Shown one piece after another: positions 36,467-58,854 of a stretch of DNA of 61,385 nucleotides; within the stretch, counting starts at the first letter, position 1; the number at the start of each line of letters is the position of its first letter. The position numbers and the translations under genes were made by a program. The stretch comes from an uncultured Candidatus Saccharibacteria bacterium (GTDB taxonomy: Bacteria; Patescibacteriota; Saccharimonadia; Saccharimonadales; Saccharimonadaceae): contig CAMPBO010000003.1 of assembly GCA_946638615.1 (NCBI GenBank), positions 1 through 61,385 of the forward strand. Reading direction: 5' to 3'. The notes below the pieces were generated by a model, which saw nothing but the letters and a program-made list of their open reading frames with translations, was not told the DNA's origin and searched no databases.

Positions 36467-37247
36467 CCACCTTAAAAGATATGTTATACATATCGTGTTT
36501 TTTGCCGCTCCTTAGGGCTTTCCAATTTTTGGTAACAATATTTTCTAAAAAGAGACGGGATTTTTTGCCAGTTTCTTCCCTGGCTAAATCTGTAATGAGG
36601 CCTCTACTTTGAGCTTTGCGAAGCATCATGTATGTTAAGGAGTGGCTTCTAGTATTGTAAGTTTCGCCAGGCTTTAAACCTTCGAATAGTTTTGTGGTTT
36701 CGGCTTCAAAAATCTCAGAGCTGGTTTTACCGTGATATTTTATTAGATTGGGAAGGAGATTTAGACGTTGAGTAATGTGATTTTTGCGATCCACCTTAAA
36801 CATCGAGCCGTTGACACCATTAATGTTGTACTCAACTGAATCTGCTGCCAAAAGAGCCGCTGGCGCAAGCAAAGGAATGGTGGCTGGGATGAGGCACATC
36901 GCGCCCACCGAGGCAAAGGTTAGGGCGAGACTGCCCGTAGCAACTGCTCCGTGTTTTAAGGCTTGACTAACTAAATTCTCGCGGTGAGTGATTTGTGGCA
37001 CTGGAGCCTCTTTAATGGTTGGTGCGGTTTCGAGTGGAGCATTTTTGTGATATGCTTCCTCAACATGTTCACGGGCTTCATCGAGTTCAGCCGATTTCTC
37101 TTGTCTTGATAATGAAGGGTCTCTTTCTAGATTTTCTGTAGCGTCGCCAGAATCTTTTTCACCGCCAAATGGAGTCACCTCGCCAATATCCCAGCGTGAA
37201 TCGTCTTGGGACTCATGACTAAATTCGCCAATATTTTTGTTCGCCAC
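36462..37247 (-). CDS. Hypothetical membrane protein
   Basis: The 261-residue protein has an acidic disordered N-terminus (~85 residues), one long or two short hydrophobic helices (about residues 95-130, KHGAVATGSLALTFASVGAMCLIPATIPLLAPAALLAADS), and a basic soluble C-terminal domain. I recognise no family. Its ATG overlaps the argS stop by one base, so it is co-translated with argS. Confidence 0.6.
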   Translation of the reverse strand: MANKNIGEFSHESQDDSRWDIGEVTPFGGEKDSGDATENLERDPSLSRQEKSAELDEAREHVEEAYHKNAPLETAPTIKEAPVPQITHRENLVSQALKHGAVATGSLALTFASVGAMCLIPATIPLLAPAALLAADSVEYNINGVNGSMFKVDRKNHITQRLNLLPNLIKYHGKTSSEIFEAETTKLFEGLKPGETYNTRSHSLTYMMLRKAQSRGLITDLAREETGKKSRLFLENIVTKNWKALRSGKKHDMYNISFKVV

Positions 37248-38962
37248 TACATTTCCTCTGGGATTTCAATACCTAAAATGTTTAGACCGTGGGTCATAGT
37301 ATCTAGGTAGACTTTGACGATTTTTAGGCGCTCTTTTTCCTCGCTTGAGCCGGTGACTTGGCAATTTTCATAAAATCTTGAGAAGTCCTGGGCGAGTTCG
37401 TATAGGTAATTTGCGACTTTGTGTGGGGCCATCTCGGCAACAGATTCGGCAAGCATACCCCTATACTCCAAAAGTTTTTTAATTAATGCCCTCTCGCTTG
37501 GATGGAGGTCTCTCGACCCCGTTCGCTCAGGCCCGTCGTCACGGGCTTCGCTCTCTTCGCTCGGGTCGTAACCCTCGCGGGACACGGTCTCAAGACCTTC
37601 ATCCTGCGCGAACGCGTTTGTCAAAATCTTCTTGGCGCGGACACAGGAGTAGAGGAGATATGGACCAGAGTTGCCGGTCATTTTGACGGATTCTTTTGGA
37701 TCAAAAATGATATTACCGCCCATTTTGTATTTCAAAAAGGCATATTTCGTAGCGGCGAGAGAAACTTTTTCGTCGGTTGAGCTATATTCGGACTTTAATT
37801 CATCTTTCACGAGGTCGAGGACCTCAACGGCTTTTAAGAAGTTGCCCTTTCTCGAAGACATTTTAACGTTGCCTGGGAGCTTGACGAGGCCGTGAGTCAA
37901 GTGTGTGGTTTTTGCGACTAAGTCTGGGGCGTACTGCTCGATAGATTTCAAAACCACTTTCATGTATTCGAGCTGTTCGTTGCCGGTGATGACCACAGAT
38001 TTGTCAAAATGATAATCGTTGTTTTTGGTGAAAATCAGACCGACGTCCTTAGCTTCATAAGTTGGGACGCCCTCTTTATTGATAAAGACACGGGTATGGA
38101 GACCATATGGTTCACCCTTAAAGACTACGGCGCCGTCGGATTCTTCATAAACTCCGGCCGCGAGCTCTTTTCTGACGGTCTCAAGGCCGAGGGCAGCGAC
38201 GGTAGATTCGGGGTAATATTTGTCGAACTTAACGCCGATGCTAGCATAAAAATTGTTGAAGTACTCATAGCTTAATTCGCGACCTTTCCAATAAAGATCG
38301 GAAATTGGCGTGCCATGGATACCCTCAGCGTTGATCTTGTAAATTTCTTTGTTGAGCCTTGTGATTTCGGCGTGGGCTTGCTCGTCTTCATCGTAAGCGG
38401 CAGTACCTTCGACGTAACATTTTGAAATATCTTCTATGGTGAGGTTGTCTGGAGTGAAGCCGTTTCTTAGCAAGGCGTAGCTAGTCTTGGCCACGTGGAG
38501 ACCAACGTCACCACCGAAGTTGGCACGGATGACTTTGGCGCCAGCGTATTCGTAGAGTCTCGAAATGGAATCACCGACAATGCTGGTATAGAGATGGCCG
38601 ACATGGAGGACCTTAAACGGATTTGGGTCGCTGAATTCGCAGATTACCGTTTTGCCGCTAAGTTCGTTCGATTTGGTCTCGTTATCAAAACCATTATTTA
38701 AACTATCAAGTTTTTGACTTAGATAGTTATCAGATAAATTGAAGTTTAAGAAACCTGGATTAGAAATTCCGACATTTAATTCTTTATTTAATTCCTCGGC
38801 AATATCCATTGGAGATTTATGAAGATCTTTTGCGAGTTTTAATGGGGCGTTGGTGGAGTAATCGGCGTCGATATTACTTGGAGATGGGGTAAGCTCGGGC
38901 TCAAAATCAAGATTGTATAAATTTTTTATTATGAGTTTTAATTTTTGCTTGATTTCTTCCAT
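37247..38962 (-). CDS. argS: Arginyl-tRNA synthetase with in-frame palindromic insert
   Basis: The 571-residue class I synthetase charges tRNA-Arg. It shows SDPNPFKVLHVGHLYTSIVGDS (HIGH = HVGH), the KMSKS-like KMSSRKGN and a DALR anticodon-binding domain ending KVANYLYELAQDFSRFYENCQV. Between the catalytic part and DALR, residues ~453-488 (DEGLETVSREGYDPSEESEA...) are highly charged and encoded by a 105-bp GC-rich palindrome, an insertion not typical of the family. TGA-TATAAT lies eleven bases before ATG. Confidence 0.95.
   Translation of the reverse strand: MEEIKQKLKLIIKNLYNLDFEPELTPSPSNIDADYSTNAPLKLAKDLHKSPMDIAEELNKELNVGISNPGFLNFNLSDNYLSQKLDSLNNGFDNETKSNELSGKTVICEFSDPNPFKVLHVGHLYTSIVGDSISRLYEYAGAKVIRANFGGDVGLHVAKTSYALLRNGFTPDNLTIEDISKCYVEGTAAYDEDEQAHAEITRLNKEIYKINAEGIHGTPISDLYWKGRELSYEYFNNFYASIGVKFDKYYPESTVAALGLETVRKELAAGVYEESDGAVVFKGEPYGLHTRVFINKEGVPTYEAKDVGLIFTKNNDYHFDKSVVITGNEQLEYMKVVLKSIEQYAPDLVAKTTHLTHGLVKLPGNVKMSSRKGNFLKAVEVLDLVKDELKSEYSSTDEKVSLAATKYAFLKYKMGGNIIFDPKESVKMTGNSGPYLLYSCVRAKKILTNAFAQDEGLETVSREGYDPSEESEARDDGPERTGSRDLHPSERALIKKLLEYRGMLAESVAEMAPHKVANYLYELAQDFSRFYENCQVTGSSEEKERLKIVKVYLDTMTHGLNILGIEIPEEM
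37500..37604. repeat. 105-bp palindromic element inserted in frame in argS
   Basis: Twelve-base outer arms (GGATGGAGGTCT and AGACCTTCATCC, one mismatch) enclose CGACCC/GGGTCG and GCCCGT/ACGGGC hairpins. The length is exactly 35 codons and GC content is far above the surroundings. The design matches Rickettsia-type palindromic elements that insert into proteins. Confidence 0.7.
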
Positions 38963-58191: not shown

Positions 58192-58854
58192 TCAAAATAA
58201 TGATTGCTTAAGCCAATAAAAGCGTTCTTGATTCCCTGTCTTACCCTTAAGGTCGTTATCGCGTTTTTTGACGATAACGTAGTTGTTCTGCTTAAGCCAC
58301 TGCTCGAAATTTTTGATAATGTCACGACGAATTTTTTCGTTTTTGACGACGCCTTTATGCAACTGGTCTTCACGAGCTTCAAATTGCGGTTTTAGCATCA
58401 TGAGTAAATCTGTGTTTCTCGTGGGTAATTTTTTTAAGTAGGTTAGGATTTTTGTTAAAGAGAGGAATGAAACGTCGGCAACGACGGTGTTAATTTCTTT
58501 AGTCAATGGAAAATTGAAGATGTCGGTTTTTTCGTGAAGTTCGACGCGAGGATCGAAACGGAGAGGGGCCTTCATTTGGTGAGAGCCCTTCTCTACTGCG
58601 ATGACTTTTTTCGCGCCTTGTTCTAAGGCATATTCGGTGAAGCCGCCGGTCGAAGAACCGATGTCGAGAACGGTTTTGCCATGAAAATCAAAACCGAATG
58701 CCTTGGCGGCTTGAGAAAGCTTAACATATCCCCGGACGGGGACTCTCGACGGGTCCTGCCAGACCTCCCCCACTTCGCTAAAGCTCAGTGAGGGACCCCC
58801 TCCAGGTCTGTCACCCGTCCGTGTTACTTTATTTTTTCCGTTCGCGGTAGGCAT
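58192..58854 (-). CDS. tlyA: TlyA-like rRNA methyltransferase, S4 domain replaced
   Basis: Residues ~37-220 match the TlyA FtsJ-like methyltransferase: YVKLSQAAKAFGFDFHGKTVLDIGSSTGGFTEYALEQGAKKVIAVE and the ADVSFLSLTKIL motif, LLMMLKPQFEAR. The N-terminal S4 RNA-binding domain (~60 residues) is missing; in its place, codons ~12-36 are encoded by a palindromic element. The start at 58854 overlaps efp by 26 bases; a start at 58917 is also open. TlyA methylates 16S/23S rRNA; without S4 its targeting may differ. Confidence 0.8.
   Translation of the reverse strand: MPTANGKNKVTRTGDRPGGGPSLSFSEVGEVWQDPSRVPVRGYVKLSQAAKAFGFDFHGKTVLDIGSSTGGFTEYALEQGAKKVIAVEKGSHQMKAPLRFDPRVELHEKTDIFNFPLTKEINTVVADVSFLSLTKILTYLKKLPTRNTDLLMMLKPQFEAREDQLHKGVVKNEKIRRDIIKNFEQWLKQNNYVIVKKRDNDLKGKTGNQERFYWLKQSLF
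58748..58819. repeat. GGTCCTG palindromic element inside tlyA 5' end
   Basis: Arms GACGGGT/ACCCGTC (58748-58754, 58813-58819), AGACCT/AGGTCT (58761-58766, 58804-58809) and an inner CACT...AGTG stem. It shares GGGTCCTGCC...GTCACCCGTC with the copy at 44701. It stays in frame with the methyltransferase. Confidence 0.65.

Follow-up and report, generated by a model that had tools for sequence, protein, structure and literature searches.

The arginyl-tRNA synthetase gene (argS) of an uncultured Candidatus Saccharibacteria bacterium contains a palindrome that is quite probably a member of a family of small, dispersed palindromic elements specific to one lineage. These elements, most likely selfish and non-autonomous, would invade the genes and terminator-like stems of Saccharibacteria from the ruminant gut. 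The palindrome lies in a stretch of 61,385 nucleotides (contig CAMPBO010000003.1, here called the window) from a 541-kb draft genome in 26 contigs, which is 71% complete and is placed in the ruminant gut by kinship. As far as comparison of sequences can establish, a core is common to copies in many unrelated genes, the copies occupy loops that are absent from relatives, and the reading frame is kept. The alignments likewise indicate that the stem flanking the core consists of locus-specific sequence, both flanks changing in step in copies that share a site.

A palindrome within argS

The palindrome spans positions 37500-37604 (105 bp) and lies in frame in a minus-strand gene, with a GC content of 65% against about 45% for the gene. 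Its coding-strand RNA folds with -65.8 kcal/mol, compared to -44.5 +/- 3.7 kcal/mol for shuffled sequences (z -5.7; 0 of 200 shuffles). This fold, the ORF and the match to TIGR00456 bear out what had been read from the sequence alone, namely a GC-rich palindrome in frame in argS. The features discussed here are the following.

37247..38962, minus strand: argS, arginine--tRNA ligase of 571 aa, host of the element (ORF; NCBIfam TIGR00456, 302 bits, E 6e-90; Pfam tRNA-synt_1d, DALR_1 and Arg_tRNA_synt_N)
37593..37604, minus strand: 5' (coding-side) locus-specific arm GGATGAAGGTCT, weak pairing continuing to about 37616 (fold; the arm pairs only with its own partner)
37513..37592, minus strand: conserved core of type A, a three-way junction, encoding ETVSREGYDPSEESEARDDGPERTGS (R1, 106.6 bits; copies in unrelated genes)
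37558..37579, minus strand: core hairpin 2 (CGCGAGGGTTACGACCCGAGCG), a covarying stem (pair table of the core alignment)
37525..37551, minus strand: core hairpin 3, the most conserved part over all related types (consensus GYGAGCCCCGTRACGACGGGMGCGA, diverged in the argS copy)
37500..37511, minus strand: 3' (coding-side) locus-specific arm AGACCTCCATCC, encoding DLHP.., weak pairing to about 37489 (fold)
58748..58821, minus strand: second palindromic element of a dissimilar family, type E (GACGGGTGAC...GGCAGGACCCGTC; weak R1 match of 17.1 bits; fold; type-E copies elsewhere)

The sequence-only reading had described an insertion of 105 bp with 12-base terminal arms. The terminal 12-mers ggatggaggtct and agaccttcatcc do pair, but at 11 of 12 positions only, and the stem reaches beyond them to about 37489-37616. 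These outer arms are specific to the locus and lie outside the unit common to the copies, which is the inner 80 nt (37513-37592; covariance model R1, E 2e-28); across the family, the conserved unit is a core of about 60-80 nt forming a three-way junction. The insertion is real, but its length has to be corrected: argS gained about 75 nt (25 codons) relative to element-free relatives, not 105. The 3' arm is probably native linker sequence, since it resembles the LxPxER ends of some element-free relatives. A search of the genome itself with the exact 105-mer gave a single match and no further copies; the genome holds one core of this family and two type-E elements.

Insertion and decay in the ArgRS linker

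Judging from the alignments, the argS segment is an insertion. The linker measures 123 nt here, whereas most element-free linkers among 95 distinct ones surveyed have 42-66 nt; those that bear elements range from 87 to 207 nt. Several of 23 other ArgRS sequences of the genus, retrieved in a first search, do not have the segment, so that the segment-free close relatives proposed earlier as the proof of insertion do exist. The converse finding, the same charged segment in distant ArgRS sequences, would have refuted it and was not made: the segment is absent from order-level relatives, and in one structure alignment with the solved ArgRS 6ao8 the insert falls between two aligned pieces. Across species, this single loop holds at least six element types or peptides.

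Two linkers (L224 and L244) retain only the 3' part of a type-A copy and are back to 54-60 nt, that is, they appear to represent in-frame decay of such a copy. A search for the argS C-terminus was successful in 153 of the genus's 174 genomes; all of these matches are free of internal stops. One further linker (L073, argS of genome G018) shows a local tandem expansion, with an in-frame repeat of the left part of its type-A element (VAQNEGLKTV / VAQNEGLETVSREG / VAQNEGLKTVSREG).

A dispersed family in one lineage

An ArgRS query matched three unrelated ORFs in relatives through the insert peptide. The covariance model R1 represents four aligned cores as a three-way junction, and their alignment contains compensatory changes. 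With this model, related cores were detected in 142 of the 174 genomes, while 32 gave no core match. A pattern for hairpin 3, allowing up to three mismatches, was present in 135 of the 174 with a maximum of 26 copies per genome; the reversed control gave 0 throughout. Outside the genus, an order-wide sample had the pattern in three genomes only, from three neighbouring genera of the same family, and in a phylum-wide sample it was confined to the genus. A scan of 85,000 species genomes (GTDB) revealed at least 118 hairpin-3 stretches, and all 80 matches listed were from Saccharibacteria, many of them from ruminant gut. All relatives are draft or metagenome-assembled genomes.

The related cores fall into types A, B and C. 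Their host genes include ObgE, GatA, Der, TypA, the Leu-, Ile-, Ala-, Val- and Asp-tRNA synthetases, LigA and others, and copies are also found in intergenic terminator-like stems. The family is thus dispersed over many unrelated genes and the intergenic DNA of one lineage. The argS palindrome had already been likened to the design by which selfish palindromic elements survive inside proteins. Our results support this, and the dispersal of the same element over many unrelated genes goes beyond it.

Rfam has nothing at the argS element, the sole matches in the window being five tRNAs. We considered tRNA mimicry for the lower-scoring R1 matches of about 74-78 nt, but the three loci tested contained no tRNA. 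An exact match in IMG/VR, which would have indicated viral carriage, was not found.

Type E and other repeats

Type E is present in 70 of the 174 genomes. The type-E element of the window is located near the start of a TlyA-like rRNA methyltransferase ORF (58192-58854, minus strand). This ORF overlaps the end of efp, and its alignment to the TlyA model begins only at about position 49, with the S4 part apparently missing. At another locus (L131:5950-6061), a type-E element is followed by two partial tandem repeats of its 3' end (ACAGGACCCGTC / GGCAGGACCCGTC), all in one ORF. The window also contains an intergenic GC-rich inverted repeat beside tRNA-Val (1252-1344; 27-nt arms, 85% complementary, with 39 nt between them), perhaps yet another palindromic element.

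Hot spots, empty sites and mobility

Some loops have received elements of different types, namely in ArgRS (three sites), ObgE (two), GatA, Der and TypA, and some of these hot spots hold elements in both orientations. Clean empty sites are available for IleRS, AlaRS, ObgE, LigA and ValRS (gene names in both cases by reading of the sequences). In tight loops, the net gain is about 99-117 nt. This exceeds the core, and some arm DNA must therefore have arrived with or after the insertion.

Y1 transposases (Y1_Tnp) were found in 8 of the 174 genomes. Reverse transcriptase genes (RVT_1) occur in 98 of these very small genomes, often several in each. One genome (G122) is 99% complete and has 22 copies, yet it is on neither the Y1_Tnp nor the RVT_1 list. 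With Y1 transposases rare and this high-copy genome matching neither, the two enzymes are unsupported as mobilisers. A search for Y1_Tnp and RVT_1 in 174 genomes, which did not cover other transposases, thus implicated no mobilising enzyme.

Locus-specific arms

We aligned the left flank of each of 171 in-gene copies locally with its own right flank, requiring a score of at least 9. The arms paired in 93% of the copies, compared to 6.5% when left and right flanks were taken from different copies. At shared sites (the ArgRS linker, an ArgRS N-terminal site and ObgE site 1) both arms change together and the pairs are kept by two-sided compensatory changes. Four ObgE copies have one bulge in common and therefore probably descend from one ancestral insertion, as far as their sequences tell. 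In ObgE, the right arm at site 1 spans the conserved IADL, and its reverse complement forms the left arm. The core is often bordered by GA on either side, which might be a target-site duplication but could also belong to the element.

It is possible that the elements target the tips of existing hairpins and that the arms are the target's own stem. Many intergenic copies indeed lie inside stems between an A-tract and a T-tract, and YPAL of Yersinia is likewise reported at dyad targets (PMC2229807). However, homologous empty sites contain no comparable inverted repeat (judged by eye, unscored), and in-gene arms reach at least 20 bp, which makes this origin of the arms unlikely, although it deserves to be kept in mind.

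Alternatively, selection on the mRNA might keep the stem as a regulatory or protective structure (pausing, decay control or co-translational folding), so that the element would not be a selfish passenger. The two-sided compensatory changes in core and arms would fit, as would the tandem GA mismatches that flank the core in many copies and the slight lean of arm mismatches towards G-U (158, against 119 A-C). Yet the hosts are many unrelated genes, and the same loops receive different types in both orientations. Copies are lost by in-frame deletion, and 32 of the 174 genomes have no core match at all. Moreover, the same covariation can come from template switching without selection (PMC8794818). 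We regard mRNA selection as distinctly unlikely to be the main explanation; on the arms it remains possible, the excess of G-U over A-C being only slight.

Template switching within the hairpin is the likeliest way for the arm stems to be made and kept. It is known to create and repair perfect stems (PMC8794818); the stem-making is the same as the one proposed here, but the evidence for it comes from RNA genes rather than from mobile elements within protein genes. We also considered an inverted target duplication of fixed length. The net gains vary, from the core only (argS) to the core plus about one or two arms, and this model was therefore dropped in favour of overwriting. That insertion or residence of the element itself drives the switching, so that the host coding sequence on either side of the core becomes a perfect inverted repeat, is a suggestion that we make only tentatively.

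Reading frame and the host protein

Among 119 copies, 99 are situated in an ORF of at least 150 codons. Three of the six frames account for 94 of these and four frames for 98, while the third same-strand frame is not used by any; the type-A core has stops in at least one same-strand frame. The remaining 20 copies are in no ORF of at least 100 codons and mostly inside terminator-like stems. Gene-breaking insertions are thus not seen, since nearly all in-ORF copies use stop-free frames and the others stay outside such ORFs. Several intergenic copies (L137, L181, L201, L211 and others) are placed at the tip of a terminator-like stem, in the order A-tract, stem, element, stem, T-tract. Although no transcript or protein data back the inferred translation, the inserts are apparently translated as harmless floppy loops.

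A strong hairpin with a long closing stem is also a property of the mitochondrial byps, and an element of this shape might be cut out of the RNA like an intron or be bypassed by the ribosome, never appearing in the protein. Such a process needs no frame, yet the linker length is divisible by three in all 95 ArgRS linkers, and the in-ORF copies avoid the third same-strand frame, the type-A core having stops in at least one same-strand frame. The lack of Rfam matches in the window other than the five tRNAs also speaks against this reading, which we consider very improbable.

In the AlphaFold model of ArgRS, the mean pLDDT is 90 and values below 50 are confined to residues 456-483, which are the insert. 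The model places it between helices 433-454 and 488-498, the first and the next helix of the DALR anticodon-binding domain. It was earlier thought to lie just before this domain; instead, it lies inside (Pfam DALR_1, residues 437-571). The surface loop sought in a predicted structure is there, and the insert is predicted to be the sole disordered surface loop of an otherwise confident model. Being charged and within the anticodon-binding domain, the segment could be an adaptive part of ArgRS, such as an extra loop for tRNA binding or interaction. This is hardly tenable, as many congeners do without it, others carry unrelated element peptides in its place, the same core occurs in unrelated proteins, and the loop is modelled as disordered.

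Even though the genomes are metagenome drafts and hairpins are hard to assemble, a chance GC-rich stretch or fold-back chimaera is in practice refuted by recurrence, that is, by over a hundred distinct copies from many independent assemblies, together with the z of -5.7, the kept frame, and an arm bulge and covariation shared across species.

As we picture the life of an element in this selfish family, a core would first be inserted by an unidentified route. Only insertions that are in frame, free of stops and in tolerant surface loops would survive, translated as disordered, charged, near-neutral loops. The flanking stem would then arise from host sequence. Its perfection would be maintained mainly through template switching of the DNA within the hairpin, whereby the reverse complement of one flank replaces the other flank. 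Finally, the copies may decay by in-frame deletion.

Comparison with known systems

Besides Rickettsia, Wolbachia and a report from archaea, we know of few cases of dispersed palindromes inside protein genes, and of no mechanism by which they spread. The archaeal report is cited in a paper (PMC2229807) that also reviews the Rickettsia palindromic elements (RPE; Ogata 2000, 2002). These are palindromes of 105-146 bp with stable stem-loops, found in frame within conserved protein genes as well as between genes; a Gmk with an RPE is translated and active, and RPEs are listed with 12-bp terminal inverted repeats. The Saccharibacteria elements resemble them as palindromes of about 100-150 bp in frame in conserved genes and also between genes. 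They differ in belonging to another phylum, in an outer stem that is different at each locus and built from host sequence, in using three or more frames and both orientations, and in loops that several families have hit repeatedly. Wolbachia palindromic elements are also in-frame, stop-free palindromes, in genes such as addA, addB and priA of again another phylum (PMC4224334). That the Saccharibacteria elements work like these coding palindromes is an analogy only, without any sequence comparison with RPE or WPE.

ERIC/RU-1, YPAL/RU-2 and the Correia element (107 bp) are small and dispersed, with hairpin transcripts and in-frame fusions, and YPAL targets lie near dyad symmetry; the descriptions place these elements mainly between genes, give them terminal repeats in common and mostly mention a duplicated target (PMC2229807). 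In contrast to these MITE-like elements, the Saccharibacteria copies sampled lie mostly within genes and have no outer repeats in common. The MITE criterion of terminal inverted repeats shared between copies therefore fails, only the inner core being common. Mitochondria of Nematomorpha have perfect inverted repeats in translated genes with both arms coding; the arms there are described as coding for conserved parts of the protein, without a dispersed element between them (PMC6649704).

We found no report of intragenic repeats or in-frame insertions in the literature on Saccharibacteria or Patescibacteria, a search that did not extend to most subscription journals. The family, its occurrence in ruminant-gut Saccharibacteria and the host-derived, co-evolving arms appear to be new; the kind of element itself is known from Rickettsia and Wolbachia.

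Implications

Over a hundred copies are available in a parasite-like clade with reduced genomes, and homologous sites are filled by different families or empty, so that landing, frame keeping, the origin of the arms and loss can be tested by comparison alone. Since many of the hosts are housekeeping enzymes, the family provides a natural experiment on which loops of essential proteins tolerate random peptides. Template switching may be the source of the covariation here, which would normally be taken as proof of RNA function. If the element does drive the switching, this would amount to a novel mode of gene remodelling by a mobile element, leaving an inverted rather than a direct copy of the target while translatability is kept.
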